From contig NZ_AMRL01000014.1 in the NCBI RefSeq assembly GCF_000299935.1, positions 1-64,000 on the forward strand: a stretch of DNA of 64,000 nucleotides. The letters run 5' to 3'. Below the pieces are notes generated by a model. The model saw nothing but the letters and a program-made list of their open reading frames with translations, was not told the origin of the DNA and ran no database searches. This stretch comes from Oceanibaculum indicum P24. Lineage in GTDB: Bacteria; Pseudomonadota; Alphaproteobacteria; Oceanibaculales; Oceanibaculaceae. Every line of letters starts with the position of its first letter. Within the stretch, counting starts at the first letter, position 1. Of the stretch, positions 11,050 through 47,205 are shown in pieces. The position numbers and the translations under genes were made by a program.

Positions 11050-11754
11050 TCACACCGACAGATAGGCTTGGCGGGCGTCCTCGTCCGCCATCAGCTCGTC
11101 CATGGTGCCGGAAAAGCGGATGCCGCCCTTCTCGATGATGGTCGCGCGGTCGGCGACCAGCTTCGCGAAATGCAGATTCTGCTCCGACAGGATGAGCGTC
11201 AGCCCTTCCGCCTTCAGCGCCTTCAGCGTGACGGCCATCTGCTCCACGATCTTCGGCGCCAGCCCCTCGGACGGTTCGTCCAGCAGCACCAAAGAGGGGT
11301 TGCCCATCAGCGTGCGTGCGATGGTCAGCATCTGCTGTTCGCCGCCGCTCATCTGCCCGCCCGGCCGGCGCCGCATCTCCGCCAGGTTGGGGAACAGCGC
11401 ATAGAGCTTCTCCGGAGTCCATTCCGGCACGCCAGGCCGGGCCGGCTGGCGCCCGACCTCCAGATTCTCCTCGACCGTCAGCTCGGTGAATACACGGCGT
11501 TCCTCCGGCACGTAGCCGAGGCCCAGCCGGACGATCTCGTGCGGCGGCCGTCCCGCCACTTCCGTTCCCTCGAAACTGATGCTGCCCGATGTCGGCGGCA
11601 CCAGCCCGACGATGGATTTCATGGTGGTGGACTTGCCGGCCCCGTTGCGGCCCAGCAGCGCCAGCACCTCGCCACGCGACACTGACAGCGCCACATCGGC
11701 CAGGATATGGGCGCGGCCATAATGCGCATTCAGCCCTTCGACGGTCAGCATCAC
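11050..11754 (-). CDS. livF: Branched-chain amino acid-type ABC transporter ATP-binding protein LivF
   Basis: A 234-residue ATPase of a hydrophobic-amino-acid (HAAT) importer. Walker A is GRNGAGKST at about residues 35-43, the signature is MSGGEQQML, and Walker B is LVLLDEPSEGLAP. The SEGLAP form and short length identify LivF rather than LivG. The start overlaps the livG stop by 4 bp. It is the last gene of the transporter operon. Confidence 0.93.
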   Translation of the reverse strand: MMLTVEGLNAHYGRAHILADVALSVSRGEVLALLGRNGAGKSTTMKSIVGLVPPTSGSISFEGTEVAGRPPHEIVRLGLGYVPEERRVFTELTVEENLEVGRQPARPGVPEWTPEKLYALFPNLAEMRRRPGGQMSGGEQQMLTIARTLMGNPSLVLLDEPSEGLAPKIVEQMAVTLKALKAEGLTLILSEQNLHFAKLVADRATIIEKGGIRFSGTMDELMADEDARQAYLSV

Positions 11755-12518
11755 GAAGCCTCCCCCGCGAACATGGCGCCACTGCCGAGATAGGTTTCCT
11801 GCACCAGCGGATTGTCGCGCACCGCCGCCGGCGTGCCCTCGGCCAGCAGCCGGCCCCGGTTCAGCACCAGCACCCGGTCGGCATGGCCGAACACCACATC
11901 CATGTCATGCTCGGTGAACAGCACGGAGATGCCGCGCTGCTTCACGATACTGGCGGTCAGCTCCATCAGCCCGACGCGCTCGCGCGGGGCCATGCCGGCG
12001 GTCGGCTCGTCCATCAGCAGCAGCTTCGGCGCATTCGCCAGCGCCACCGCCAGCTCGACGCGCTTCAGGTCGCCATAGGCCAGCACGCCGCAGGCGCGCT
12101 CCGCCTGCTCCGCCATGCCGACGAGGGCGAGCAGCTCCATCGCCTCCTCCCGGTACTGGCGACCGGCATCGGCGAACAGCGACAGCAGGCGGTTATGGTG
12201 CGACAGCAGCGCCATCTGCACATTCTCGCGCACGCTCATCGAGCCGAAGGTGGCGGTGATCTGGAAGGTGCGCCCAACGCCCAGCCGCCAGATGCGGCGC
12301 GGCGCCATGCCGGCAATGTCACGGCCCAGCAGCCGGATGGTGCCGGCATTGGGCTTCAGCTGGCCCATCAGCATGTTGAAGCAGGTGGTCTTGCCGGCGC
12401 CGTTCGGGCCGATCAGCGCCAGCAGCTCCCCGGCATCCAGCGTGAAGGACACATCGCTGACGGCGTGGATACCGCCGAAGGATTTGGCGAGGCCCGCAAC
12501 CTCAAGCACCCGGCTCAT
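11751..12518 (-). CDS. livG: Branched-chain amino acid-type ABC transporter ATP-binding protein LivG
   Basis: A 255-residue ATPase, partner of LivF in a HAAT importer. Walker A is GPNGAGKTT at about residue 37. The LivG-type extended loop follows, then GVLAYGDLKRVELA in place of the canonical LSGGQ signature, as is common in LivG proteins, then LLLMDEPTAGM and the switch His in LFTEHDMDVVF. It overlaps its neighbours by 4 bp on both sides. Confidence 0.92.
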   Translation of the reverse strand: MSRVLEVAGLAKSFGGIHAVSDVSFTLDAGELLALIGPNGAGKTTCFNMLMGQLKPNAGTIRLLGRDIAGMAPRRIWRLGVGRTFQITATFGSMSVRENVQMALLSHHNRLLSLFADAGRQYREEAMELLALVGMAEQAERACGVLAYGDLKRVELAVALANAPKLLLMDEPTAGMAPRERVGLMELTASIVKQRGISVLFTEHDMDVVFGHADRVLVLNRGRLLAEGTPAAVRDNPLVQETYLGSGAMFAGEAS

Positions 12519-14386
12519 GCCGCATCCTCCCGGTCCATGAAGCGATGGCGCACGAAGCCGGCGATGCCCTGCGGGAAGGCCACCACAAGCCCGACTATGA
12601 CGAGGCCCAGCAGGATGCGCCAGTAATTGGTCAAGCTCACCAGCTCGGTCTTGATGGCGGTGAAGCTGACCGCGCCGACAATCGGCCCGGCCAGCGTCTG
12701 CACGCCGCCCAGCAGCACCATGACCAGCGCATCGACCGACAGCGGGATCGCCATTAGGTCGGGCGAGACGCTGCCCTTCAGGAAGGCGAAAAGCCCGCCG
12801 GCGATGCCGGCGAACAGCCCGGCCAGGGTGAAGCCGAACCAGCGCATGCGGCGCACATCGATGCCGATGGCATCCGCACGCAGCGGCGAATCACGGCCGG
12901 CCCGCAGCGCATAGCCGAAGGGCGAGAAGGCGGTGCGCCTGAGCGCCAGCAGCGCCAGCACCACGACGATGGCGGCAAAGCCGTAGAAGGCCGCCGCCGA
13001 GGACGCCCAGGAGGACGGCCAGATGCCCAGCATGCCATTGTCGCCGCCGGTGACATCGAGCCACTGGAAGGCGACCGCCCAGGCGATCTGCGCGAAGGCC
13101 AGCGTCAGCATGGCGAGATAGACGCCCGACAGCCGCACGCAGAACCAGCCGAACAGCAGCGCCCCCAGCGCGCCTCCGACCGGCGCCATGAACAGGGCGG
13201 CCTCCATCGGCCAGGCGAAATGCTTCACCATCAGTGCCGCCCCATAGGCGCCGAGGCCGAAATAGGCGGCATGGCCGAAGGAGATGACGCCGCCGATCCC
13301 CATCAGGAAATGCAAGGACGCGGCGAACAGCGCGAAGATCAGGATTTCCGTGGCGATGGTCAGCGCGTAATTGCCCGCCATGCCGGGCAGCGCCACCAGC
13401 AGGGCCAGGACCGCGAGGCCAAACCATTTCAGCGAGGCGGGGGCGGGCAGCAGCGGCGGTTCCACCGCGCCATGCGCGGCATGCAGTGTTTCCCGCCGGC
13501 CCAGCAGCCCCCAGGGCCGCACCACCAGCACCACCGCCATGACGGCGAAGATCAGCACCAGCTCGACCTGCCAGAACTGGATGCCCAGCACGCTCATATC
13601 CGCATTGGCGACGGCGAAGACGCGGATCAGCGCGATCAGCAGCGCCGCCAGATAGGCGCCGAGGATCGAGCCCATGCCGCCGACCACCGTGACGACGAAC
13701 ACTTCGGCGATGATGCCCAGATCCATGGTCAGGCTGGCATTGCCCTTGGGCAGCTGGATCGCCCCGCCCAGCCCGGCCAGTGCGGTACCCAGGAAGAACA
13801 CGCCGGTCAGCAGCCATTTCTGGTTCACGCCCAGCGCCGCCACCATCTGCCGGTCCTGCGTCGCGGCCCGCACCAGAATGCCGAAGCGGGTGCGGTGGAA
13901 CAGCAGCCACAGCCCGGCCAGTACCAGCGGCGCGAAGGCGATGAGGAAGAGATCATATTCCGGCAGGCGCTGCACGCCGAACGGCACGGCGCCGGTCAGC
14001 CCCGGTGCACGCGGGCCCAGCAGGTCTTCCGCGCCCCAGATATAGAGCGCGATATCCTGCACGATCAGCACCACACCGAAGGTGGCGAGCAGCTGGAACA
14101 GCTCCGGCGCGTGGTAGATGCGGCGCAGGATGGTCATTTCCATCGCCACGCCGATCAGCCCGACGGCGATGGCAGCCAGCAGCACCCCGCTCCAGAAGGC
14201 GAGCACGCCGCCGCCCATCCCCTCGATCAGCGTCCAGGCGATATAGGCGCCCAGCATGTAGAAGCTGCCATGGGCGAAATTCACGATCCGGGTAACGCCA
14301 AAGATGATGGTCAGCCCGCAGGCGACCAGAAACAGGGCAGAGGCGCTGGCAAGCCCGGTCAGCAACTGGGCGATGAACAGTTCCAA
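12515..14386 (-). CDS. Fused LivH-LivM permease of a HAAT-type ABC importer
   Basis: A 623-residue protein in which both permease subunits of a branched-chain-amino-acid-type importer form one chain. Residues 1 to about 290 are LivH-like (FGVTRIVNFAHGSFYMLGAY). Residues from about 320 are LivM-like (SFGHAAYFGLGAYGAAL). Each half carries about eight hydrophobic segments and an EAA-type cytoplasmic loop. In most such transporters these are two genes. It overlaps livG by 4 bp and is separated from the binding-protein gene upstream by a family B repeat. The substrate is unknown; proximity suggests the substrate of the catabolic operon. Confidence 0.9.
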   Translation of the reverse strand: MELFIAQLLTGLASASALFLVACGLTIIFGVTRIVNFAHGSFYMLGAYIAWTLIEGMGGGVLAFWSGVLLAAIAVGLIGVAMEMTILRRIYHAPELFQLLATFGVVLIVQDIALYIWGAEDLLGPRAPGLTGAVPFGVQRLPEYDLFLIAFAPLVLAGLWLLFHRTRFGILVRAATQDRQMVAALGVNQKWLLTGVFFLGTALAGLGGAIQLPKGNASLTMDLGIIAEVFVVTVVGGMGSILGAYLAALLIALIRVFAVANADMSVLGIQFWQVELVLIFAVMAVVLVVRPWGLLGRRETLHAAHGAVEPPLLPAPASLKWFGLAVLALLVALPGMAGNYALTIATEILIFALFAASLHFLMGIGGVISFGHAAYFGLGAYGAALMVKHFAWPMEAALFMAPVGGALGALLFGWFCVRLSGVYLAMLTLAFAQIAWAVAFQWLDVTGGDNGMLGIWPSSWASSAAAFYGFAAIVVVLALLALRRTAFSPFGYALRAGRDSPLRADAIGIDVRRMRWFGFTLAGLFAGIAGGLFAFLKGSVSPDLMAIPLSVDALVMVLLGGVQTLAGPIVGAVSFTAIKTELVSLTNYWRILLGLVIVGLVVAFPQGIAGFVRHRFMDREDAA

Positions 14387-14615: not shown

Positions 14616-15830
14616 TTACTCCTTCGCGCGGAGCTTCTTCACCACCTCGTCGGGCGGCAGATAGTCCTCGCCCTTGCCGAAGCGCCAGTCGACCATGCGC
14701 GGCATGCCGTCCTTCACGGTCAGCGTGCCGACATAGGCGCCCATGGTGCTCTGGTTGTCGATGGCGCGGTAGGTGATCGGCCCCAGCGGCGTGCCGAGCT
14801 TCAGGTCGGCGAAGGCATCCACGACCTTCTCCGTCTCGGTCGTGCCGGCCTTCTCCATCGCCGCCTTCACCGAATACAGCGCGGCATAGCCGACCACCGA
14901 GCCGAGGCGCGGATAGTCGTTGAACTTCTTCTGGAAGGCCTCGCGGAACTTCACATGCTCCGGCGTCTCGATGGCGTACCAGGGATAGCCGGTGACCAGC
15001 CAGCCCTCCGGTGCCTCATCCTTCAGCGGGTCGATCCAGTCCGGCTCGCCGCCCAGCATGCTGGCCACGGTGCGCTTCTCCCACAGGCCGCGCACCTTGC
15101 CTTCGCGCACGAACTTCAGCAGGTCGCCGCCGAAGGTGACGTTGAAGATGGCGTCCGGATTGGCCGCCGCCAGCGCCTGCACGGCGGCACCGGCATCGAT
15201 CTTGCCCAGCGCCGGCCACTGCTCGGCGACGAACTCCACATCCGGCTTCTTCGCCTTCAAGAGCTCCTTGAAGGCGGCGACGGCGGACTGGCCATATTCA
15301 TAGTTCGGCGCGATGGTCGCCCAACGCTTGGCCGGCAGCTTCGCCGCCTCCTCCGCCAGCAGGGCCGCCTGCACATAGGTGCCGGGGCGCAGCCGGAAGG
15401 TGTAGCGGTTGCCCTTCTGCCAGGCGATCGAGTCGGACAGCGGCTCGGCGGCGATGAAGATCACCTTCTTCTGCTTGGCGAAGTCGGACACGGCAAGGCC
15501 GACATGCGACAGCAGCGTGCCGAACAGCAGGGTCGCGCCCTCGCGGCTGACCAGCTCGTTCGCCACGGTCACCGCGTCGGCCGGCTTGGCGCCATCATCG
15601 CGGCTGACCACCGTAACCTGTTTGCCGAGAATGCCACCGGACGCGTTGATCTCCTCCAGCGCCAGCTCCCAGCCCTGCTTGTAGGGGATCGTGAAGGAAG
15701 CGAAGCCGGTATAGGAATTCATATCGCCCAGCACGATCTTGTCGGCGGCGACAGCCGACCCGTTAGCCGCCAGTGCGGCGGTCATGCCGGCGGCGAGTGC
15801 CAGGCCGGAAAAGCGTCTGCGTGTCATCAT
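14616..15830 (-). CDS. ABC transporter substrate-binding protein (HAAT type, Tat signal)
   Basis: Periplasmic binding protein of the Leu/Ile/Val-binding (peripla_BP_6) family, 404 residues. The N-terminus MMTRRRFSGLALAAG is a twin-arginine-type signal peptide, cleaved near residue 29 (SAVAA). The mature protein begins KIVLGDMNSYTGFAS and has the two-lobed type I fold. An in-frame start at 15866 would add 12 residues ahead of the Tat motif, so I prefer 15830 (15827 is equally possible). It lies 48 bp downstream of the DUF1185 gene and so probably belongs to the catabolic operon. It is the likely receptor for the LivFG and LivHM proteins. Confidence 0.88.
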   Translation of the reverse strand: MMTRRRFSGLALAAGMTAALAANGSAVAADKIVLGDMNSYTGFASFTIPYKQGWELALEEINASGGILGKQVTVVSRDDGAKPADAVTVANELVSREGATLLFGTLLSHVGLAVSDFAKQKKVIFIAAEPLSDSIAWQKGNRYTFRLRPGTYVQAALLAEEAAKLPAKRWATIAPNYEYGQSAVAAFKELLKAKKPDVEFVAEQWPALGKIDAGAAVQALAAANPDAIFNVTFGGDLLKFVREGKVRGLWEKRTVASMLGGEPDWIDPLKDEAPEGWLVTGYPWYAIETPEHVKFREAFQKKFNDYPRLGSVVGYAALYSVKAAMEKAGTTETEKVVDAFADLKLGTPLGPITYRAIDNQSTMGAYVGTLTVKDGMPRMVDWRFGKGEDYLPPDEVVKKLRAKE

Positions 15831-15878
15831 CGTCGGTCCCCCAAACAAAGTGGATTGCTCTAACAACCTGGCCCGTTC

Positions 15879-16466
15879 TTAACGCAGGCCATCCTCTCCC
15901 TTGATCTCGCTGACCTGCAGGCCGCCGACACGGGCATGGATGCGCCCGCCGGTGGTCATGACCAGGCAATAGACGATCTCGTCGGCGCGCGGCGCGTCGT
16001 GAATGCCGACCTCCATCGCGTCGAAATGGCTGCGCACATAGGCAGCGTCCTTGTGGCCCAGCGCGACATCGAGGCGCGCGCCCGCCGACCCTACCTTGGT
16101 GGCGGACGGCACGATGGCCTTGGCGCTGCCCAGCAGCTCGCGCATCGCATAGCCGCCCGGCACATGCCAGCAGGCACCATGCTCCAGCTCGCCCGCCGTG
16201 CCGATGATCGAGCCCTTGCCGTAGCTCTCGATCTTCGCAACGTCGCCGCCCAGTGCTGCGATCAGCCGTTGCGACATCTCCAGCCCCAGCGGCTTCAGCG
16301 CCTCCATCAGCGGCGTGATGTCTGCGACATAGCGCCCGGCATAGGGATTCTTCAGCACCGCCAGACAGGCGGCGCGCAGGATCGGTCGTTCCGGCGCGGG
16401 GCCGCCCTCGTGGCGGATTTCCTCCACGGTCAGGACCATCTTGCGGATCTGGACCAGCTCGCTCAT
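15879..16466 (-). CDS. DUF1185 'amino acid synthesis family' protein
   Basis: A 195-residue protein of the DUF1185 family; the 'amino acid synthesis' label has no biochemical basis that I know of. A conserved central segment with GKGSIIGTAGELEHGA and HVPGGYAMRE supplies candidate active-site residues. The ATG at 16466 overlaps the UPF0280 stop codon (ATGA); a start 48 bp further up would fall inside that gene. It is the last of five translationally coupled genes, so it probably acts on an intermediate of the same pathway. Function unknown. Confidence 0.82.
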   Translation of the reverse strand: MSELVQIRKMVLTVEEIRHEGGPAPERPILRAACLAVLKNPYAGRYVADITPLMEALKPLGLEMSQRLIAALGGDVAKIESYGKGSIIGTAGELEHGACWHVPGGYAMRELLGSAKAIVPSATKVGSAGARLDVALGHKDAAYVRSHFDAMEVGIHDAPRADEIVYCLVMTTGGRIHARVGGLQVSEIKGEDGLR

Positions 16467-17332
16467 CTCGTCTCCGTCAGTTCGGGCAGTTCGGGGCTGA
16501 GGGCGGTGCCGCACAGGGCAAAACGTCCGCGCAATGACAGCACCGCCGCATGGATGTGTCCAGCCTCGCGCATCGCATGGGCCCGTTGCAGCCCGACGGC
16601 AAGCGCCTGGCCGATCTCGTCATCGCCCAGCGGCCCGACCTCCAGCGTCACCGGCAGGTCGCCGAGATCGCTGTCGGGGTCGAGGCTGCTGGCCGGCGCG
16701 CGGCGGATTTCGGGGTGGCCCGGCAGATCGACGGCATTGGCGATCAGCGTCGCCGCCGCATCCGCCGCCGCCGCATCGCGCGCGAGCACGGTCACCGCAT
16801 CGGCGATCCCCAGCGACAGCGACCGCCCGCCAGAACCGCTGGTGGCGATGCCGCGCACCGGCGTCTCGAAGGGGATTTCCGCCAGCCCATCCATCGCGCC
16901 CTGGGTGAGGTCGGGCACCAGTCCGGCGCGGAAGCTCTCACCCGGTGTCAGGTGGAAGGCGATATCGCCGCCATCATTCACATAGGCCTTTGTCAGTCGA
17001 CGGTCGCGCAGCATTGCGGCCAGCACATGATCCGCCACCGATCCCGCCACCGCCGCCATCGGCGTCACATAGAGGCCGCGGAACGGCCAGACCGCCGCCA
17101 GCATCCGCCGCGCCACCGGGCCGTGCAGCGCGGGCGGCGCCTCGCCCAGCGGGCGGCGCAGCAGGTGCAGTTCCAGCGTCAGCCTCTCCAGCAGCCCGTC
17201 GAAACCCTGCACCGCCTGCCAATAGGCGCGGCGCACCTCCGCCAGCGGACCGAACGCCTCGATCACCAGATCGATGGGGCCATGCTGCAGATGCAGCCGG
17301 CCATCGGGCAGGAAGGCGCGCTGCACGCTCAT
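16463..17332 (-). CDS. UPF0280 family protein (ApbE-like fold)
   Basis: A 289-residue UPF0280 protein, a distant relative of the FMN transferase ApbE. Visible family features are AYVNDGGDIAFHL, a Mg/flavin-nucleotide-binding-like segment, and RGIATSGSGGRSLSLGIADAVTVLA, which resembles the ApbE core with its conserved Asp. It overlaps the preceding hydroxynicotinate-reductase-like gene by ATGA. The characterised Eubacterium barkeri 6-hydroxynicotinate reductase carries covalently bound flavin, so I infer that this protein could install flavin on its neighbour. This is untested. Confidence 0.82.
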   Translation of the reverse strand: MSVQRAFLPDGRLHLQHGPIDLVIEAFGPLAEVRRAYWQAVQGFDGLLERLTLELHLLRRPLGEAPPALHGPVARRMLAAVWPFRGLYVTPMAAVAGSVADHVLAAMLRDRRLTKAYVNDGGDIAFHLTPGESFRAGLVPDLTQGAMDGLAEIPFETPVRGIATSGSGGRSLSLGIADAVTVLARDAAAADAAATLIANAVDLPGHPEIRRAPASSLDPDSDLGDLPVTLEVGPLGDDEIGQALAVGLQRAHAMREAGHIHAAVLSLRGRFALCGTALSPELPELTETR

Positions 17333-18816
17333 GTAAGCCTGTCCTGAGGGTCGAGAGGCCAGGGATTATCCGATGGCTGCGGCCATGACTGGCGGCGCGC
17401 CACCGCCTCCAGCACCGCTTCCAGCGGCTTCACTTCGCCGCTATGGCCGCCCAGCGCCTCGTAATCGGGCAGCGGCAGGGTGAATTCGATGGGCGCCACC
17501 AGCGCTGGGGTCGGCACATAGCCGAAGGAATTCTCCGGCATGCGGGTGACATCGACCATCAGGGTGATGCCGCCGCCCGGCCAGACATAGACCGGCGCGC
17601 CGCCACAGGTGACACGGGTGACCAGTTCCCGGACGGAGCGCGTGAGGCGTACCGGATTCTCGGTAACACCGGCGCGCAGGCTGCCGCCCGCGCCTGCCAT
17701 GAACAGCACGGAGGTCATGGCCGGCTCGCAATTCTCCTCGATGCGCCCGACCACCGGGTTCAGCCCCGGCGGCAGCGGCTGCGCCACCGGCACGAGGTTC
17801 TCGTCCAGCACGAAATAGGCATGGTCCTCACCGGTGGTGGAGACCATCAGCAGGCGCAGGCCGGGCCAGGCGGTCTTGGGATCGATCCTGTCGATGATCG
17901 ACAGCGGATCGGTGACATCCGTGCCGCCCCAGCCGCTGCCCGGATTGGCGACCTGGAAATAGCGGCCCGGCGTGGAGCGCCGCCCGCGCACCCGGATGCC
18001 CGCCGCCCGCACGTCCAGATACTTGCCGGCCTGATGTTCGGTGAAGACGCCGGTGATGTGGTCGTCCACCACGATCACCTCGTCGGCATGCTCATGCCAT
18101 TGCTTGGCGAAGATGCCGATGGTGGCCGACCCGCAGCCGACCCGCATGCGCTGTTCCTGCTTGCCATCGACGATGGGCGGCTTGCCGGCCTGGACGATCA
18201 GCGCGGAGCCGCCATCGACGGTCAGTTCCACCGCCTGCTTGTTGCACAGCGCCAGCAGCGCCGCGCAGGTGGCGTTGCCTTCCTTCTTCGACCCGCCGGT
18301 CAGGTGATGCACGCCGCCCAGGGAGAGCATCTGCGAGCCATATTCGGCGGTCGTCACATGGCCCACCGCCTCGCCCTCATGGCGCACGGCGGCCTGTTCC
18401 GGCCCCAGATAGCGGTCGGTATCGATCTTCAGCTTCACGCCGCAATAGCTGAAGATGCCCTCGGTCACCACGGTCACCGTATCGACGCCGCGATGCTGCG
18501 TGGAGACGATGAAGGGGGCCGGCTTGTAGTCAGGATAGGTGGTGCCGGAGCCGATGCCGGTCAGGAAGGTCGGCGCGCCGGCCACCAGCGATCCGTCCCA
18601 ATGCTCCTTCAGGAAAGGCACGACGGCACCCTTCTCCGCCGCCACCTGCTGGGTCACCACCAGCGGGTCGAGCCGCACCAGCTCGCCATCGACATTGCCA
18701 TAGCGGTCGCACGCCCCGCTGCGCCCCTTGCGGATGCGGCAGATCACCGGGCAGGCGTCGCAACGGACGATTTCGCCCTCATCCTGTTCCGCTGTCTTCG
18801 GCGTGGCGTCGTTCAT
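17329..18816 (-). CDS. 6-hydroxynicotinate reductase-like iron-sulfur protein
   Basis: A 495-residue protein resembling the 6-hydroxynicotinate reductase of nicotinate fermentation, which reduces the pyridone ring. The N-terminus has four cysteines, Cys19, Cys22, Cys26 and Cys36 (CDACPVICRIRKGRSGAC), suitable for an Fe-S cluster. Further conserved cysteines lie in VTEGIFSYCGVK, NATCAALLALC, VGCGSAT and VTCGGAP. Glycine-rich stretches (GPGS-like GCGSATIGIF, WPGGGITLMVD) suggest flavin binding; the GSAT stretch is the nearest thing to an ApbE flavinylation motif, but it is not canonical. It overlaps both flanking genes by ATGA. True substrate unknown. Confidence 0.72.
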   Translation of the reverse strand: MNDATPKTAEQDEGEIVRCDACPVICRIRKGRSGACDRYGNVDGELVRLDPLVVTQQVAAEKGAVVPFLKEHWDGSLVAGAPTFLTGIGSGTTYPDYKPAPFIVSTQHRGVDTVTVVTEGIFSYCGVKLKIDTDRYLGPEQAAVRHEGEAVGHVTTAEYGSQMLSLGGVHHLTGGSKKEGNATCAALLALCNKQAVELTVDGGSALIVQAGKPPIVDGKQEQRMRVGCGSATIGIFAKQWHEHADEVIVVDDHITGVFTEHQAGKYLDVRAAGIRVRGRRSTPGRYFQVANPGSGWGGTDVTDPLSIIDRIDPKTAWPGLRLLMVSTTGEDHAYFVLDENLVPVAQPLPPGLNPVVGRIEENCEPAMTSVLFMAGAGGSLRAGVTENPVRLTRSVRELVTRVTCGGAPVYVWPGGGITLMVDVTRMPENSFGYVPTPALVAPIEFTLPLPDYEALGGHSGEVKPLEAVLEAVARRQSWPQPSDNPWPLDPQDRLT

Positions 18817-21596
18817 TGCGCGGCCTCCGCCTCTCTGATCGCCTTCAGCACCCGGTGCGGCAGCGCCGGCACCTTGGCCACCACCGCCCCGGTGGCGTCG
18901 CGGATCGCCCCCAGGATGGCCGGCGCGGTCGGCACCAGCGCCGGCTCGCCGATGCCCTTGGCGCCATAGGGGCCAAGCGGCTCAGCATCCTCGATCAGGT
19001 GCATCTCGATATCCGGCACATCGCCGAAGGTGGGGATCAGGTAATCATGCAGATTCTCGGTGCGACCGGGGATGAATTCCTCCATCAGCGCCAGACCAAG
19101 GCCCTGCGCGATGCCGCCCTGGATCTGCCCTTCCACCAGCATCGGGTTGATCGACCGGCCGACATCATGCGCGGCGGCGATCAGCAGCGGCTTCACCGTG
19201 CCCAGCTCGATATCCACCTCGACCTCGGCGATCTGCGCGGCGAAAGCATAGGTGGCATAGGGCACGCCCTGGCCGTTCTCGTCCAGCGGGCTGGTCGGCG
19301 GATCGAAGGTGCCCTCGCCGGTCAGCACATCGCCTTCCTGGCCTTCCACCGGGATTTCCCGCAAATCGATGCGGCGCACCACGACCCCTTCCGCCACCAT
19401 CAGGATCGGACCGTCCAGCGACAGCACCGATTCAGGACCGGCATTGGCGAGGCGCAATATGGTCGCGCGCAGGTCGAGGCCCGCCAGCTCCGCCGCCTTG
19501 CCGGACACGAAGGTCTGGCGCGAGGCCGAGGTCTTGCCGGCATCCGCCGTGCGGTCGGTATCGGCATAGATCTGCTCCACCAGACCGACCGGCAGGCCCA
19601 GCGCATCGGCGGCGATCTGCGCCATGATGGTATAGCTGCCCTGGCCGATATCGTGCGCGCCGTTATACAGCGTCAGCCGCCCGTCAGCCTTCAGGCCAAT
19701 GCGCATGGTCGACGGGTTCGACATCGATGTATTGCCGCAGCCATACCACATGCACCCCACGCCGACGCCGCGCCGCAGCGGACCGCCCTTCGCCTTTTCC
19801 GCCGCGTTGAACGCCATGTTCTGGCCGACCAGCGCGCGCCAGCGCGGGCGCAGCGCCTCCAGGCAGGCGGCCATGCCGACCGACTGTTCGATGATTTGCC
19901 CGCAATGCGTCGCCTCGCCGGCGCGCAGCGCGTTCAGATGGCGGAATTCCAGTCGGTCGATACCCAGCGCCAGCGCCAGATCATCCATCGCCGCCTCATG
20001 CGCGATGGCGGCCTGCGGCACGCCGAAGCCCCGGAAGGCACCTGAAGGCGTGCCGTTGGTATAGACCGCGCGGCTGGTGCACAAGGCCGCCCCCACCTTG
20101 TAGGGGCCGGTCGCGTGGACCGGCACGCGGTTCGCCACGGTCGGCCCCCAGGAGGCATAGGCGCCGGTGTCGAAATCGCCATGGAAGCGGAAGGCGGTGA
20201 TCTTTCCTTCAGCATCCGCCGCCGCCTCCACCGCGATGGTCGCCGGGTGGCGCTTGGTGGTGGAGGCCATGGATTCCGGCCGGTGGTAGATCATGCGGAC
20301 GGGCCGCTCCAGCAGCCAGGCCGCCGTCGCCAGCAGCGGCTGCACCGACATGTCCAGCTTGCCGCCGAAGCCACCGCCGGTCGCCGTCGGGATGATCCGC
20401 ACATCGGCCTTCGCGATGCCCAGCACATGGGCAACCTCGTCGCGGTCCATATAGGGCGTCTGGGTGCAGGCGGTGATCTCCATGCGGCCGCCGACGCGCC
20501 GGGCGAAGCCGGCCTCCGGCTCGATATAGGCATGCTCGACATAGCTGGTCTCGAAGCGCCGTGCCGTGCGCGCCACAGCATTGGCGAAACCGGCCTCCAG
20601 ATCGCCACGCGCGACATGGCCCCGGATCAGCACATTGCCCGCACTGGCGGCGTGCAACTGCGCAGCGCCCTCGGCCAGCGCGGCCTCGGTGCCGATCAGT
20701 GCCGGCAGTTCCTGCCACACGATGGGGATATCCGCCTCGGCCACCCCTTCCAGCGCGGCGCGATCGCCGACCAGCGCCAGCACCGCCTCGCCCCGGAAGC
20801 GTACATAACCATCGGCCAGCACCGGCTGGTCCTTCAGGTCAGGATAGATGCCGAAACTGTTGCTGCCGGGCACGTCAGCGGCGGTGAAGATGCGCTCGAT
20901 GCCGGGATGGTTTTTCCGGAAGGCATCCAGATCGCCCAGCGTGAAGCGCGCATGGGCATGGGGCGAGCGGATCGCACGCAGCCACAGCGCATCGGCGGGC
21001 GCCTCGTCGGCGCCGAATTTCTCCTCGCCGGTCAGCTTCGGAATCCCGTCCTTGCGGGGAATGCGCGCGCCAACGGCGGCACCGCTCTTTGCCCCCACAA
21101 AAGCCCCGGACGCGCCGGCATCCAGTACGGCATCGACGATCTTGCGGTAGCCGGTGCAACGGCACAGCACGCCGCCCAGCGCATCCTCGACCTGCTGGCG
21201 GGTGGGCGCAGCGGTAACAGCCAGCAGCTCGCTCGCCGCCATCAGCATGCCCGGCGTACAGATGCCGCACTGCGCCGCGCCATGGCGATGGAAGGCCTGC
21301 TGCAGGCCGTTCAGCCGGCCCTCCTCTGCCAGCCCCTCTACCGTGACAATATCCGTCCCGTTCGCCTGTGCGGCCGGCACCAGGCAGGCACAGACCTGCC
21401 GCCCGTCCATCAGTACGGTGCAGGCGCCGCAATCCCCGGCATCGCAGCCCACCTTGGTGCCGGTCAGCCCCAGATTGTCGCGCAGCACCCGCGTCAATCG
21501 CCGGCCTGGCGGCACGGAGAGCGTCACCGGCTGGCCATTCACCGTCAGGCGGATGCGGCTGTCACTCGCGTGTGACATGGCGATGGGCGCGTTCAT
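18813..21596 (-). CDS. Xanthine dehydrogenase-family hydroxylase, fused [2Fe-2S] and molybdopterin subunits
   Basis: A 927-residue molybdenum hydroxylase that fuses two usually separate subunits. Residues 12 to about 165 are the small subunit, with a plant-type cluster (CDAGDCGACTVLMDGRQVCAC) and a second cluster (CGICTPGML...CRCTGYRKI). Residues from about 175 are the large subunit, with GGGFGGK, FRGFGVPQ and the catalytic glutamate Glu884 in KGIGEP. The FAD subunit is the gene just upstream (ATGA overlap). The substrate is probably a heterocycle hydroxylated with water. The classic xanthine-oxidase substrate residues cannot be assigned by eye, and purine activity is not implied. Confidence 0.9.
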   Translation of the reverse strand: MNAPIAMSHASDSRIRLTVNGQPVTLSVPPGRRLTRVLRDNLGLTGTKVGCDAGDCGACTVLMDGRQVCACLVPAAQANGTDIVTVEGLAEEGRLNGLQQAFHRHGAAQCGICTPGMLMAASELLAVTAAPTRQQVEDALGGVLCRCTGYRKIVDAVLDAGASGAFVGAKSGAAVGARIPRKDGIPKLTGEEKFGADEAPADALWLRAIRSPHAHARFTLGDLDAFRKNHPGIERIFTAADVPGSNSFGIYPDLKDQPVLADGYVRFRGEAVLALVGDRAALEGVAEADIPIVWQELPALIGTEAALAEGAAQLHAASAGNVLIRGHVARGDLEAGFANAVARTARRFETSYVEHAYIEPEAGFARRVGGRMEITACTQTPYMDRDEVAHVLGIAKADVRIIPTATGGGFGGKLDMSVQPLLATAAWLLERPVRMIYHRPESMASTTKRHPATIAVEAAADAEGKITAFRFHGDFDTGAYASWGPTVANRVPVHATGPYKVGAALCTSRAVYTNGTPSGAFRGFGVPQAAIAHEAAMDDLALALGIDRLEFRHLNALRAGEATHCGQIIEQSVGMAACLEALRPRWRALVGQNMAFNAAEKAKGGPLRRGVGVGCMWYGCGNTSMSNPSTMRIGLKADGRLTLYNGAHDIGQGSYTIMAQIAADALGLPVGLVEQIYADTDRTADAGKTSASRQTFVSGKAAELAGLDLRATILRLANAGPESVLSLDGPILMVAEGVVVRRIDLREIPVEGQEGDVLTGEGTFDPPTSPLDENGQGVPYATYAFAAQIAEVEVDIELGTVKPLLIAAAHDVGRSINPMLVEGQIQGGIAQGLGLALMEEFIPGRTENLHDYLIPTFGDVPDIEMHLIEDAEPLGPYGAKGIGEPALVPTAPAILGAIRDATGAVVAKVPALPHRVLKAIREAEAAQ

Positions 21597-22438
21597 GCTG
21601 TTGCTCCAAGCTCGGCAAGGCAGCGTTTCACCAGCACCAGCGCCGCCTCAAGGCGGTAGCCGGCATCGGCACGGATATCATCGATCGGTGCCAACGCGGC
21701 CAGATGCTCCGTCGTGACCATACTGGCGAGGCCCGCATCGGCAGGCTGTCCGACCAGTGCGACTTCCAGCACCGGCAGGCGCTGCGCCACGGCGGAGCAG
21801 GCGCCAACCGCGATGCGCGCGGCGGCGACCCTGCCCTCCTTCACCTCCAGCAGGCCAGCGACCATGGTGATGGAGATGACCAGATATTTGCGCGCACCCA
21901 GCTTCAGGAAGCTGGCGCGGGCGGCCTCCGCCGGCTTCGGCACCAGAATGGCGGTCACCAGCTCGTCCGGCCGGCGGGCTGTCTTTCGGTTGCCGAGGAT
22001 GAAGCCACCCAGCGGCAGCACCCGCACCCCGTCGGCCGAGGCCAGCTCCACCGAGGCGTCCAGTGTCAGCAGCGGCGGCACGCCATCGGCGGCGGGCGAG
22101 GCGTTGCAGAGATTGCCGGCGATAGTGGCGCGGTTCTGGATCTGCGCGCCGCCAACCTCCCGCGCCGCGCGGCGCAGCCCGTCGAAGCAGGGCGGCAGGT
22201 CGCCTTCGGCAATATCAGACCAGCGCGTCAGCGCGCCGATGCGGAAATGATCGCCGGCATCGGCAATGCCACGCAGCCCGGCAAGGCCGGTAATATCGAG
22301 AATATCCTCAGGGCGCTGCGCGGTGACGCGCGCCGGGTAATGGTCGGTACCGCCGGCAAGCAGGGTCCAGCGTCCCTCGCGCAAGGCGGAAACCGCGTCC
22401 TCGAGCCGCTCCGGGCGCAGATATTGGCCGTCGCTCAC
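21593..22438 (-). CDS. FAD-binding subunit of the xanthine dehydrogenase-family hydroxylase
   Basis: A 281-residue flavoprotein of the CO-dehydrogenase/XDH medium-subunit family that passes electrons from the Fe-S clusters to an acceptor. The FAD motifs LLAGGTDHYP (about residues 28-37) and ATIAGNLCNASPAAD (about 105-120) are present. I chose GTG 22438 because GGGAGA lies 6 nt upstream; an in-frame ATG at 22471 would add 11 atypical residues without a visible ribosome-binding site. It is the first gene of the catabolic operon and divergent from the SdhA-like flavoprotein. Confidence 0.88.
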   Translation of the reverse strand: MSDGQYLRPERLEDAVSALREGRWTLLAGGTDHYPARVTAQRPEDILDITGLAGLRGIADAGDHFRIGALTRWSDIAEGDLPPCFDGLRRAAREVGGAQIQNRATIAGNLCNASPAADGVPPLLTLDASVELASADGVRVLPLGGFILGNRKTARRPDELVTAILVPKPAEAARASFLKLGARKYLVISITMVAGLLEVKEGRVAAARIAVGACSAVAQRLPVLEVALVGQPADAGLASMVTTEHLAALAPIDDIRADAGYRLEAALVLVKRCLAELGATA

Positions 22439-22728
22439 CCGTATTCTCCCAATCTGCTGGCCGCCCACCACCCTTAACAGTGCCGGGACGCTTGCTGCCA
22501 GGAAACCCTGTTACCCTGTTCGCCGCCGGGTTGGTCCCAGTCAGCTATTCATTTGTGTACATATGTTTTCTTGCATAGTGAGACCGCCCGACCCCACCCG
22601 TCAAGAGGGGAGAATCAGTGGCAACTCCTGTACGGCCGCTTCGCGGCCGCAGACCACATTCGCTTCTGCATGCGGCCTTGCATCAGCAGCATGTTGTGCA
22701 GCGCCGTAATGCCGGCCATCATACACTT
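22439..22728. other. Divergent intergenic region between the two halves of the catabolic island
   Basis: 290 bp separate the FAD-subunit start (minus) from the flavoprotein start (plus) and must hold both promoters. The stretch at about 22545-22580 is AT-richer than its surroundings and contains a short TGTACA palindrome (22557-22562). I see no convincing operator or -35/-10 pair. An in-frame extension of the flavoprotein to 22618 crosses this region but has no family similarity. Confidence 0.5.
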
Positions 22729-24420
22729 ATGCGCACACTTGAAACCGACATCGCGATCATCGGTGCGGGCGGGGCCGGGATGGCCGCCGCCATCGCCGCC
22801 TCGGAAGCGGGCAGCCGCTCCATCCTTATCGACCGCAGCCTGATCGGCCGCGGCGGCGCCACGGTGATGGCGCAGATGACGGTGGCCGCCGCCGTCGGCG
22901 AGCAGACCGAGGATCACTGGACACACCATCTGAAGGACACGCTGGCCGCCGGGCGCGGGCTGTGCGACGAGCGGCTCGCCCGGCTGCTCTGCGAGGAGGG
23001 CGTTACCGCCATCCGCCGCCTGCAGGACTGGAAGGTCGGCTGGGCCGCCGAGGACGGGCATCTGAAGCAGGTGCAGGCACCGGGCCATGACCGGCCGCGC
23101 TGCGTCTATGTCGATTTCCTGAATACCGGCCCCGCCGTGTCCAAGACGCTGCGCACGCAGGTCATCCGGCACGAACCGGTACGCCGGGTCGGCGATCTCT
23201 ATGCGGTGGACATCGTGCAGCGCGACGGCGCGGCGGTCGGCGTGCTGTGCCTGCATCTCCACACCGGCGAGCCGGTGCTGGTCTCCGCCCCTGCCACCAT
23301 CATCGCCACCGGCGGGCTGACCCGGCTGTACCGGCGCAACAGCGCCTCGCTGAACATGGGCGGCGATGGCTACGCGCTGGCGCTGCGCGCCGGGGCCAGC
23401 CTGATCGATATGGAATTCGTGCAGTTCTTCCCGATCGGCCATCTGGCGCCGCGCCTGATCGGCATGGACCCGATCATGTGGGACCCGTTCCGCTACAAGC
23501 TGGGCGGGCGGCTGCTGAACGGCAACCGCGAGGAGTTCACGCAGAAGTACGGCGTCGCCGATGGCGGCCGCTACCAGATCACACGCGATCAGGCGACCTA
23601 TGCCATCACCAAGGAGGTCGAGGCCGGGCGCGGCAGCCCGGCCGGCGGCGCCTATCTCAGCTTCGAGCATGTGCCGGAATCGGAGCTGCGCAAGGCCTTC
23701 GGCCCGATCATCGACAAGCTGGCGAAGAATGGCATCGACCTGACCAGGACCGCCATCGAGGTCGCCCCCATCGCCCATTACCATATGGGCGGGGTACAGG
23801 TCGGCCCCGACATGGAGACCGAGGTGCCGAACCTCTATTGCGCGGGCGAGGCGGTCGGCGGCGCGAACGGCGCCAACCGGCTGTCCGGCAACGCCATCAC
23901 CGAGGCGCTGGCCTTCGGCTTCGTCGCCGGGCGCAGCGCCGCCAGCCGCGCCAAGGCCACCGGCCCGGTCGGCGATATTGCGTCAGACGCGGCAGAAGGG
24001 CTGGCGCTGCTGCGGGCCGACGGTCCCAAGAACGCGCCGAACAGCGCCGCCCTGATCGCCGAATTGCAGGACCTGATGCAGGATTATGTCGGCCCGTTCC
24101 GCACGGCGGAGAAGCTGGCCCATGCGCTGGCCGAACTGCGCCGGATGAAGGCCGATCTTGGCGCTGTGCCGTTCGGCAGCGGCGCTGCCTACGATCCCGA
24201 GCGGCTGGACTGGCTCGACCTGCGTACCATGCTGACCGTCGCCGAGGCGGTCACGCTCTCCGCCCAGGCCCGCACCGAGAGCCGCGGCGCGCACCAGCGC
24301 GAGGATCACCCCGGCCTCGACCCGGCCTGGGAGCTGAACCAGATCGTGCAGCTGAAGAATGGCGGTCTCTCGCTGGAACGCCGCGCCGTCATCCGCCAGG
24401 AAATGGAGGCCGCCTCGTGA
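22729..24420 (+). CDS. SdhA/FrdA-like FAD-binding oxidoreductase lacking the covalent-FAD histidine
   Basis: A 563-residue flavoprotein of the succinate dehydrogenase/fumarate reductase/aspartate oxidase family. The Rossmann motif GAGGAG is at 12-17. Where SdhA has R-S-H-T-V with the flavin-linked His, this protein has G-G-A-T-V (Ala44), so FAD should be non-covalent. The FrdA-type QFHPTG is QFFPIG here. HYHMGG, the second FAD motif GANRLSGNAITEA and RGAHQREDHP are kept. I chose ATG 22729 by homology; the frame is open up to 22618. It overlaps the [2Fe-2S] gene by 4 bp. It is likely a dehydrogenase or reductase for a dicarboxylate-like intermediate, but its substrate is unknown. Confidence 0.82.
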   Translation: MRTLETDIAIIGAGGAGMAAAIAASEAGSRSILIDRSLIGRGGATVMAQMTVAAAVGEQTEDHWTHHLKDTLAAGRGLCDERLARLLCEEGVTAIRRLQDWKVGWAAEDGHLKQVQAPGHDRPRCVYVDFLNTGPAVSKTLRTQVIRHEPVRRVGDLYAVDIVQRDGAAVGVLCLHLHTGEPVLVSAPATIIATGGLTRLYRRNSASLNMGGDGYALALRAGASLIDMEFVQFFPIGHLAPRLIGMDPIMWDPFRYKLGGRLLNGNREEFTQKYGVADGGRYQITRDQATYAITKEVEAGRGSPAGGAYLSFEHVPESELRKAFGPIIDKLAKNGIDLTRTAIEVAPIAHYHMGGVQVGPDMETEVPNLYCAGEAVGGANGANRLSGNAITEALAFGFVAGRSAASRAKATGPVGDIASDAAEGLALLRADGPKNAPNSAALIAELQDLMQDYVGPFRTAEKLAHALAELRRMKADLGAVPFGSGAAYDPERLDWLDLRTMLTVAEAVTLSAQARTESRGAHQREDHPGLDPAWELNQIVQLKNGGLSLERRAVIRQEMEAAS

Positions 24421-24749
24421 ACCAGACCGCCCGCCTCATCCTCCAGCGCGGCCGGCCCGGGGAAGCGCCCCGCGCCGAGGCCCATGACGTACCGTTCGAG
24501 CCCGGCCAGTCGGTGCTGGATGGGTTGCGCTGGATACGCGCGCACCGCGACCCGGCGTTGGCCTTCCGCTTCTCCTGCATCAACGCCAATGCCTGCAAGG
24601 AATGCATGATGCATCTGGACGGCAAGGTGATCTATGCCTGCACCGAGCGGCTGCGCGAGGGCGACATGACTCTGGCGCCGCTGCCCAACAAGGCGCTGAT
24701 CCGCGACCTCGTCACCGAGATCGCCCCGCCCGACGAACGGCTGGAGTAG
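24417..24749 (+). CDS. Stand-alone [2Fe-2S] protein equivalent to the N-terminal half of SdhB
   Basis: A 110-residue ferredoxin-like protein that aligns with the N-terminal [2Fe-2S] domain of the SDH/FRD iron-sulfur subunit, up to the motif NKALIRDLVTEI, and then stops. The C-terminal domain with the [4Fe-4S] and [3Fe-4S] clusters is absent. The ligands are Cys54, Cys60, Cys63 and Cys75 (C-x5-C-x2-C-x11-C), one residue longer in the first loop than the usual C-x4-C. The GTG start at 24417 overlaps the flavoprotein stop (GTGA), so the two are translationally coupled and probably form a complex that hands electrons to a soluble carrier rather than to quinone. Confidence 0.82.
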   Translation: MNQTARLILQRGRPGEAPRAEAHDVPFEPGQSVLDGLRWIRAHRDPALAFRFSCINANACKECMMHLDGKVIYACTERLREGDMTLAPLPNKALIRDLVTEIAPPDERLE

Positions 24750-43295: not shown

Positions 43296-45968
43296 TCAGC
43301 CGGTCCGCACCTGCGTCAGGAACTGGTCGACCTGGTTGCGCAGGCGCTCGCTCTGTGACATCAAATCGTTGGCGGAGTTCAGCACCTCGTGCGCCGTGGT
43401 GCCGCTCAGCTCCGCCGCCGTGCTGACGCCGACGATGTTGGAGCTGACCTCCTGCGTGCCCGAGGCCGCCTGCTGCACATTGCGGGCGATTTCCTGGGTG
43501 GCGGCATTCTGCTCCTCCACCGCCGAGGCGATCACCGTGGCGATCTCGTTGATCTCGCCGATAATGCTGGCGATCTCGGTGATCGCGCCCACCGCCTCTT
43601 CCGTGGTGCCCTGCATGACCTCGATCTGACCGGACACATCCTCGGTCGCCTTGCCGGTCTGGTTGGCCAGGTTCTTCACCTCCGAGGCCACGACGGCGAA
43701 ACCCTTGCCCGCCTCGCCGGCGCGCGCTGCCTCGATGGTCGCGTTCAGCGCCAGCAGGTTGGTCTGCTCGGCGATGCCACGGATCAGCTGCACCACCTCG
43801 CCGACCTGCTGGGCGGCCTTCATCAGTTCCTGCACCGTGCCGTTGGTGCGCTGCGCCGCGCTGACCGCACGCTGGGCGATGGTCGCGGATTCGCTGACCT
43901 GGCGCCCGATCTCGCTGATCGAGCTGGACAGCTCCTCCGCCGCCACGCCGACGGTCTGCACATTGCTGGAAGCCTGTTCCGAGGCCGCCGCGACGGTGGT
44001 GGCCTGGGTACGGGTCTCCTCCGCCGTGTGAGCCATGCTCTCCGCCGAAGTCTTCAGGCCGGAAGCCGCCGTGGCCACCGCCTTCACGACATCGCCGATC
44101 TTCGCCTCGAAATCGTCGGCCAGCTGATACATCATCTTCCGGCGTTCCTCGGCCGCCTGCCGGCGTTCCTGATCGGCGGCAGCGCGGCTTTCCTCCAGCG
44201 CCACCGCATTGTCGCGGAACACCGCCAGCGCATCGGCCATGCGGGCGATCTCGTCACGGCCGCTGTTCGGAATCTCAGCGGTCAGGTCGCCCTGGCTGAT
44301 CGATTCCATCGCCGTGGTCAGGCGCATCAGCCTGCCGACGACGGCGCGCCCGACATAGAGCCAGCCCAGCAACACCGCACCGATGATGCTGGCGCCGACA
44401 ATGACGAGCATTGCCGTGGTGCTGGCCATAATGACGTCGTTGGTGGCGGCCTTCGCGTCCTCGATCTTGCCGGAGGCTTCATCGACCAGCGCATCGACGG
44501 CGAACTGCAATGCGGTCGCCTGCACCTTGCCGGCGGCAAGCGCCTCGCTGGCCTTTTCACCCAGGGCCAGCTCCTGCCGGCGCAGGTCGAACAGATTGCC
44601 ATCGGCGGTGCCATATTCGATCAGCATGTTGACCGTGCTGGCCAGCATGGCGACGTCCTGCCCGCCATTCTGCAGCTCTTCCAGATAGGCGTTCACGCGC
44701 GAGGCGGCACCGGCGAAGCGGCCGGACAGGGCGTCGATCTCAGCCGTGCGGCTTTCATTTGACGCCGCCGCCAGCACGCCGGCCAGCAGATTGGCCTCGC
44801 CCTGGATGGACAGCAGCGCGCGCAGCATGCTGACGTCCTTCTCCATCAGCCGGGTGATGATGAAGCTGTTGTCGGCGATGGTGACCTCGGAACTCAGCAC
44901 CAGGTCGAAGCCGGTATCGTCAACCAGCGTGACCAGCGCCAGGGTCAGATTCTCATAGAGCGCCAGCAGTTCGCGCATCAGCTCGACACGGCGGCTGCGC
45001 ATCGCCTCCAGCTTCTGGAAGTCGGAGCCGGTCAGCTCATCCATGCGGGTGGCGAACAGCCCGTTGGCATCGCGCCCCTTGGCGACCATCTCCTCGACCA
45101 GCATCACCACATTGGCGCCACTACCCAGATCCCACAGCTTTTCCAGATTGGGGGCGATCCGCCGCGCCGTGGCGTCGAACTGGTCGCGCAGGGGACGCAG
45201 ATGCGTGGCATCCTGCGCCGAGGCAACCTGGGTATAGATGCCGAGCAGCGAGTTGACCTCGGCCTTGACCTCCAGCGCCGCCCGCAGCGCGCCGACTTGG
45301 TTTTCCAGCAAATCGGTGATTGTGCGCCCGCTGTTCGCCGTCGCCTCCTCGGCGGCGGAGACAAGGCCGGTACGCGCGCTTTCCACCTTGGGGTCGATAT
45401 CGGCCAGGATCGCGCCATGCGCCAGATTGGCCTCGTCCACCATGTCCTGGCGCTTGCGCTTGATTGCAAGCGACTCCTTCACGATCTGGTCGATGCTCTG
45501 CAGCCGGCTGGCCAGCGTCTCGACGCTGGTGCGCAGCCCCTGCACCTGCTGTTCGCCAGCCTCGCCCAGCACCCGGGCCAGGTCGATGATGTCGCTGTTC
45601 AGCAGGTTGGTGCGCTCGTCCAGCGCCGCACGGGCATCCTCGCGCTCCTTTGGCGTCGTCGCGGCCTGCAGCGCCGGGGCCACTGCCAGGAAGCCGTTCA
45701 CGTCGGCGGCGATCTTCAACGCCGCTTCCGACATCGGCACGGCCTCGTCGGTGATCGTCGCCAGGCTGTCCTTCACACGCTCGAAGGAGAACCAGGCGAC
45801 ACCGCCGGCCAGCACCGTCATGATAGCCGCGCCACCGAACGCCATCAGCAGCTTCTCGCGGATGCCGAGGCCGCGCCCGCGCCGCTTCGCCTGCCGGGCC
45901 GTGTTTTCCGGGTCGTTTCCGGCTTCGGTATCGACCTCAGCCTCAATCGCTTCGTTATTCTCTGTCAT
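43296..45968 (-). CDS. Methyl-accepting chemotaxis protein with very large sensory region
   Basis: An 890-residue chemoreceptor. A short cytoplasmic N-terminus is followed by TM1 at about residues 38-60, a periplasmic region of about 460 residues that looks like stacked helical bundles with internally similar segments, and TM2 at about 520-545. A HAMP domain follows, then the MCP signalling domain with the hairpin tip [28 protein letters not shown] at about residues 760-790. There is no C-terminal CheR/CheB pentapeptide. I chose ATG 45968; a GTG 27 bp upstream is in frame. It lies 31 bp downstream of a binding-protein gene, which suggests the binding protein presents ligand to it. Confidence 0.92.
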
Positions 45969-45999
45969 GACTTGCCCCCGTCCCTTCCTGGACACAGCT

Positions 46000-47205
46000 T
46001 CAGCCGCCAGCGGCGGCCAGGCTTTCTACCTTCTTCACTGTTCCGTCATCCTGGATCACGGTCAGTGTCACCGTGTCCGACCCTTGATTGTCGCCCTTCC
46101 CGAAGGTCAGCGTGAAGCCACCCAGATCGAAGCTGCCGACCTTGTACAGCGTGTCGACAAAGGCGCGCTGCGTCGGCTCGCCCTCGATCTTGCGCAGCAC
46201 CTCCAGGAACAGCCGCCCGGCGACATAGCCTTCCAGCGACACCGTGTCGGGGCGCGCCTTGTCGCTCACCGCCATCATGGCGGCCTGATATTGCTGCACC
46301 AGCGGCAGCGACTCATCCTGCGGCAGCGGCATGACCTGCGTGACGGCCACACCGGTGCGCTGCGCCGCCAGCGCCTGCGAGAACACCTCACCACCAACGA
46401 AGGAGGTGGTCAGGAAGCGCGGGTCCATGCCCAGGCTGCGCGACAGCTTGATGAATTCCGCCGCCGGACGGTAGGCGCCGACGATCAGCACCGCCTCCGG
46501 GTTGGCCTTGCGGATGGTCAGCAGCGCGGTCTTCACCGCCGTGGTGTTGCGGTAGTAGCTGCCTTCCGCGACCAGCGTCAGACCGTGCTTCTCCAGCGCC
46601 TTCTTCACCGCCCGCACGCCGGAAATGCCAAAGGCGTCATCCTGATACAGGATCGCGATGCGCTTGGCCTGAAGGTCGGCGGTCAGCCGTTCGATCCACA
46701 GCTCGGCCTCCTGATCGTAGGAGGCGCGGATATTGATCACATAGTCGAGTTCCGGCTGGCGCAGGGCCGGCGCGCCGGTGAAGGCGCCGATGAAGGGGAT
46801 GCCCATGTCATTGGCCAGCTGCATGGCCGACATCGACGGCGCGGTACCGACCGAGCCGATCATCGCGAAGACGCCCTCGGTCAGGATCAGCTCCTCCGCA
46901 TTCGCCAGCGCGCGGTCGGCGCGGTACTCGTCGTCCTTTGTCATCAGCTCGATCTTGCGGCCCTTCACGCCGCCGGCATCGTTCGCCTCCTTGAAGGCGG
47001 CGAGCAGCCCCTCGCGCATCGCCATCCCCAGTTCGGCGACCGAGCCATTCAACGCGGCACTCTGCCCGACCACAATGCGGTCGGCATAGACGCCGGAGGC
47101 GGCAGCCAGGGCTGGCGCCGCGCTGGCGGCGATGATTCCCAACCCCAGGACCGCGCCCAGGACAGTACCCCGAACAGTGGCGGCGGCTTTCGGTACGAAG
47201 CGCAT
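46000..47205 (-). CDS. HAAT-type periplasmic substrate-binding protein, orphan, paired with chemoreceptor
   Basis: A 401-residue secreted protein of the Leu/Ile/Val-binding fold. The signal peptide is at residues 1 to about 33, and the mature protein starts [44 protein letters not shown]-type receptor motifs (here [17 protein letters not shown]) are present. An excellent ribosome-binding site, AAGGAGGGG, precedes the ATG at 47205. No permease or ATPase is linked; the next gene in the same direction is the chemoreceptor. It is probably a sensory binding protein. Ligand unknown. Confidence 0.87.

Follow-up and report, generated by a model that had tools for sequence, protein, structure and literature searches.

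A putative nicotinate operon of Oceanibaculum indicum P24 and an ATP-dependent lactamase pair that probably stands in for enamidase

We analysed a stretch of 64,000 nucleotides of Oceanibaculum indicum P24 (contig NZ_AMRL01000014.1, positions 1 to 64,000; the window), which carries on its minus strand an operon around a protein resembling Hnr, the 6-hydroxynicotinate reductase. This operon probably serves nicotinate degradation through 1,4,5,6-tetrahydro-6-oxonicotinate (THON), with the ATP-dependent lactamase pair HyuA/HyuB (HyuAB) opening THON in place of enamidase. In the proposed route, nicotinate would be imported by a HAAT transporter and converted into 6-hydroxynicotinate by a molybdenum (Mo) enzyme of the xanthine dehydrogenase family. 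The Hnr-like Fe-S protein, constantly accompanied by UPF0280, which probably serves in its maturation, would then reduce 6-hydroxynicotinate to THON. The delta-lactam of THON would be opened by HyuAB, with HyuA using ATP to activate the oxygen of the lactam and HyuB carrying out the hydrolysis at a metal site, and the carbon would pass onward to glutarate and glutaryl-CoA.

The operon begins with the FAD subunit of the Mo hydroxylase (21593..22471; PF00941, 139.8 bits; PF03450, 54.6 bits), the conserved first gene, followed by the fused [2Fe-2S]/Mo subunit (18813..21596; PF00111, PF01799, PF01315, PF02738, PF20256), the two together being a predicted nicotinate dehydrogenase. Then come the Hnr-like protein, a predicted 6-hydroxynicotinate reductase (17329..18816), UPF0280 (16463..17332; NF003322, 379.5 bits against a cut-off of 290) and a DUF1185 protein (ATG at 16466 to 15879; PF06684, 238 bits; solved relatives 3byq and 2qtp). 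All these genes are linked by exact 4-base overlaps (21593-21596, 18813-18816, 17329-17332 and 16463-16466). Exactly 48 bp separate DUF1185 from a HAAT-type periplasmic binding protein of the Peripla_BP_6 family, the predicted nicotinate binder (ATG at 15830 to 14616; PF13458, 220.7 bits). It is followed by a fused LivH/LivM permease (12515..14386; PF02653 in two stretches, each half UrtB/UrtC-like), the LivG ATPase (11751..12518; PF00005, PF12399) and the LivF ATPase (11050..11754; an open frame whose order is conserved in relatives). The initial annotation had described the four overlaps and the 48 bp gap correctly, and every gene that it named is present at the locus, but the operon does not end with the binding protein: it runs on through LivHM, LivG and LivF to 11050. 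The HAAT transporter is thus complete (15830-11050), in keeping with the predicted import of the substrate.

With the Hnr-like protein as query, at least 592 confirmed stretches were obtained, and 80 loci with Hnr 66-89% identical to the window protein were kept for comparison. UPF0280 directly follows Hnr in nearly all of them, the FAD and Fe-S/Mo genes precede it in most, and DUF1185 and the transporter come after it in many. The arrangement goes far beyond what chance would give, as the same gene order is repeated in most of these loci from other genomes. The co-location of gene families proposed earlier held for the operon genes; it failed for a divergent SdhA-like/[2Fe-2S] gene pair, which is unlinked in most carriers. 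Orthologues of Hnr were found in 76 of the 387 alphaproteobacterial genomes surveyed (about 20%), so the nicotinate route would be a common one in this class.

The island had been regarded as uncharacterised and its substrate as unknown. Judged by its sequence, it is instead a member of a cluster type already published for nicotinate. The cluster of Azorhizobium caulinodans and Bradyrhizobiaceae SG-6C comprises an Hnr homologue (42% identical to Hnr of Eubacterium barkeri), the genes of the first steps, an ABC transporter and a further two conserved proteins that have no assigned function; one strain carrying it grows on nicotinate, with transient appearance of 6-hydroxynicotinate (PMC3511419). 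The published route leads from nicotinate through 6-hydroxynicotinate and THON to glutarate, and the THON route is also reviewed in PMC9304392. The window shares with this cluster type the Hnr homologue, the Mo hydroxylase, the ABC transporter, the conserved proteins of unknown function and, as predicted, the route via THON. UPF0280 and DUF1185 would fit the two unknown-function proteins. Unlike the published type, the window genome has no enamidase in the cluster or elsewhere in the genome, and its HyuAB pair lies elsewhere on the contig.

Among solved structures, the closest match of the Mo region is the nicotinate dehydrogenase of E. barkeri (3hrd), whose two Mo chains, A and B, score 271 and 231 bits, with the runner-up at 158 and 141 bits. 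Xanthine as substrate is disfavoured, as nicotinate dehydrogenase outscores xanthine dehydrogenase by far in this comparison. The nicotinate fermentation cluster of E. barkeri (cited in PMC9304392 and PMC10331938) likewise has a nicotinate dehydrogenase belonging to the xanthine dehydrogenase family and, after it, Hnr. Its Mo moiety is split into two chains, whereas in the window a single chain holds both the Mo subunit and the Fe-S domain, and its ring is opened by enamidase, which the window genome lacks. The hydroxylate-then-reduce logic proposed in the initial annotation is supported.

It is unlikely that the island acts by the same logic on another N-heterocycle, such as picolinate, isonicotinate or a pyrimidine carboxylate, with HyuAB opening a different lactam. 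The Mo hydroxylase family is broad and sequence alone leaves the substrate unfixed; moreover, another type of Mo enzyme is encoded in a Rhodopseudomonas locus (L072) and a Xanthobacter locus (L049), which carry the same set of Hnr, UPF0280, DUF1185 and transporter. The hydroxylase of L072, the locus covered by the domain scan, bears C-terminal cytochrome c domains that the hydroxylase of the window does not have; this form resembles NicB of Pseudomonas putida. Against another substrate stand the wide margin by which nicotinate dehydrogenase is the best solved match, the occurrence of Hnr and the transporter in clusters of the type published for nicotinate, and several loci in which window-type hydroxylase genes adjoin enamidase. 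The Rhodopseudomonas and Xanthobacter loci themselves point the same way: the hydroxylase was exchanged while Hnr (67-71%) and the binding protein (59-61%) stayed similar, which argues for one substrate common to both types of loci.

The reading of the operon as a nicotinate operon with a substituted ring-opening enzyme rests further on the distribution of the two candidate THON openers. An amidohydrolase that we call enamidase from its context and family, as curated models give it no name, lies near Hnr in 18 of the 80 loci; HyuA lies near Hnr in 27 and HyuB in 17, and none of the 80 loci has the amidohydrolase together with HyuA. At the level of genomes the exclusion is sharp. With orthologues called at no less than 64% (enamidase) and 66% (HyuB) identity to the query, 32 of the 76 Hnr genomes have enamidase, 43 have HyuB, none has both, and the single genome with neither is a fragmented assembly of 770 contigs (Fisher's p 1.2e-20, uncorrected for descent). 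Enamidase occurs in 2 of the 311 genomes without Hnr. On the Hnr tree, about 10 changes between the enamidase and HyuB states were counted, at least three of them on well-supported branches, and both states are found inside one genus (enamidase in G165 and G245, HyuB in G372). This gene content, the homology, the co-occurrence and the mutual exclusion are direct observations.

The window genome belongs to the HyuB type, as do about half of the relatives in which the route occurs (43/76). No enamidase was found in it, the top match being 35% identical over 71 residues. It does carry a HyuA and a HyuB, 61% and 73% identical to the cluster-linked forms, at C14:91806-96225 on the same contig, about 71 kb from Hnr. 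The initial annotation had noted that ring-opening genes such as that for enamidase were missing here, and had offered two explanations. The absence of enamidase extends to the whole genome; of the explanations, a different substrate is unlikely, and the encoding of later steps elsewhere is supported. The lack of enamidase is accounted for if the unrelated HyuAB pair takes its place, as it probably does in this genome.

The sequences of the pair are those expected of an ATP-dependent lactamase. HyuA has the ATP motifs DVGGTFTD, DMGGT and GANPGP, and HyuB the metal-tetrad motifs SDG, GGTHLMD and NTGHW (Asp-His-Asp-His), in agreement with those described for CapAB (PMC8453981). The related OplAB opens delta-valerolactam using ATP (PMC11033972). 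The pair thus resembles CapAB and OplAB in its two subunits, its ATP-binding motifs and its Asp-His-Asp-His tetrad (PMC8453981, PMC11033972), and its predicted substrate THON is, like the compound opened by OplAB, a delta-lactam. Caprolactamase CapAB itself is ruled out by the scores of relatives of the pair, 493 and 343 bits against CapA/CapB cut-offs of 1000.

Several points weigh against the assignment of HyuAB to THON. All catalytic steps, the compound on which HyuAB acts, and the functions of UPF0280 and DUF1185 are inferred from comparison. In the window genome HyuAB sits outside the operon, and its nearest named enzyme, caprolactamase, falls far under the curated cut-off. The genome counts share descent, and three well-supported independent pairs are too few for significance (p 0.25). 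HyuB at no less than 66% identity also occurs in 4 of the 311 genomes without Hnr, all of one family. In these four (G097, G185, G260 and G324) HyuB is 66-70% identical to the copy of the window genome; it may open another lactam there, or the upper pathway may have been lost.

These Hnr-free genomes, and the fact that almost half of the genomes have HyuAB far from Hnr or unlinked to it (HyuB is within 15 kb of Hnr in 23 of 43), would suit an alternative in which nicotinate is the substrate but some unrecognised enzyme opens THON, the HyuB orthologue having another job such as 5-oxoproline or hydantoin hydrolysis. We find this improbable, given that 75 of the 76 genomes have exactly one of enamidase and HyuB, that the tree shows switches between the two states, and that HyuAB is directly linked to the operon in many loci. 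Opening of THON by HyuAB is also compatible with the genes found for the steps below it: the window genome encodes a glutaryl-CoA-dehydrogenase-like protein and a CoA-transferase, 74% and 58% identical to a pair near Hnr in locus L017, which fit the published glutarate route.

In open-licence papers we found no report of a hydantoinase in connection with the degradation of nicotinate, with 6-hydroxynicotinate or with THON, and a description elsewhere is possible; within that literature the exchange of enamidase for an ATP-dependent lactamase appears to be new. The either/or pattern makes a putative new lactamase activity, acting on the natural delta-lactam THON, directly testable. If the assignment is true, one group of genes that carries only a hydantoinase/oxoprolinase annotation would gain a function.

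UPF0280 is strictly paired with Hnr. It is present in exactly the 76 Hnr genomes and in none of the 311 others; in 74 of the 76 the two genes share a contig and are no more than 160 bp apart, in one the distance is 1.5 kb, and in one, a fragmented genome, they are on different contigs. This pairing, which suggests that UPF0280 may be a dedicated maturation factor for Hnr, appears to be new within the open-licence literature and makes the role of the UPF0280 family testable. The model of UPF0280 (pLDDT 94.8) has DVU1097 as its top fold match, followed by the ApbE/FmnB flavin transferases (Foldseek probability 1.00, E down to 1.7e-6). Hnr of E. barkeri reportedly holds a covalent flavin and several Fe-S clusters, and the covalent flavin would fit a flavin transferase dedicated to Hnr. 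The predicted fold of UPF0280 is like that of ApbE/FmnB, but the protein is only 11-15% identical to them in alignments and lacks the invariant histidine: none was found among 53 UPF0280 sequences, the best candidate being H14, kept in 44. A canonical ApbE target motif in Hnr was likewise unconvincing. As to a [S/T]GAT-type motif, CGSA is invariant in 41 Hnr sequences, but the Thr that follows is replaced by Ala in five. With no invariant histidine and no strictly conserved target motif, we propose only as a hypothesis that UPF0280 is the flavin transferase of Hnr. The combined picture, in which unrelated THON openers (enamidase or HyuAB) were swapped several times and never kept together and UPF0280 is a non-canonical ApbE-type flavin transferase for Hnr, is a tentative one that we place a little below an even call.

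The Hnr-like protein has no match in Pfam or NCBIfam, though the family is widespread and highly conserved (about 65-89% identity between the window protein and 40 aligned relatives). Eight cysteines are kept in at least 40 of the 41 sequences, including a CxxCxxxC...C arrangement at positions 19, 22, 26 and 36. Its structural model is mediocre (pLDDT 79) and gave no fold match in the PDB. In five loci (L011, L017, L018, L024 and L079), genes read from their sequence as a two-subunit 2-oxoacid:ferredoxin oxidoreductase lie upstream of and adjoin Hnr, and in four of the five a ferredoxin-NADP reductase-like gene adjoins it as well. These genes could be a source of reduced ferredoxin for the ring reduction.

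DUF1185 is distributed unevenly between the two types of loci. It is present in 17 of the 18 enamidase-type loci, with two copies in 14; the 28 HyuAB-type loci have one copy in 16 cases, none in 11 and two in one. As this is the opposite of what is expected for a substitute, DUF1185 was rejected as a general replacement of enamidase. Two DUF1185 genes that differ from each other stand in tandem in enamidase-type loci such as L028, L034, L040, L049, L072, L084 and L086, and the distribution suggests that the second copy belongs functionally with the enamidase route. The DUF1185 relatives TgnF and HcdD are found in trigonelline and coumarin catabolism (PMC7913881).

Opposite to the operon and divergent from it, at 22729-24749, are genes for an SdhA/TfrA-like flavoprotein (ATG at 22729 to 24420) and a short SdhB-like [2Fe-2S] protein (about 24417-24749). 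The pair is conserved in distant genomes with varied neighbours, which include phosphoglycerate kinase, GAPDH and transketolase. The initial annotation was right about the presence of these genes but not about their inclusion in the island. That they are a working part of it, as electron donor or ring reductase, is very improbable and was rejected: all four genomes of the genus have the pair, its genes are side by side in most other genomes examined and it adjoins the island in the window genome and one sister, but it lies on contigs other than that of Hnr in the other two and in three more distant genomes, and a close copy is absent from 25 of the 32 Hnr genomes searched.

Further along the window, a second HAAT-type binding protein (46000-47205) is directly followed on the same strand by a chemoreceptor (43296-45995), which it possibly feeds.

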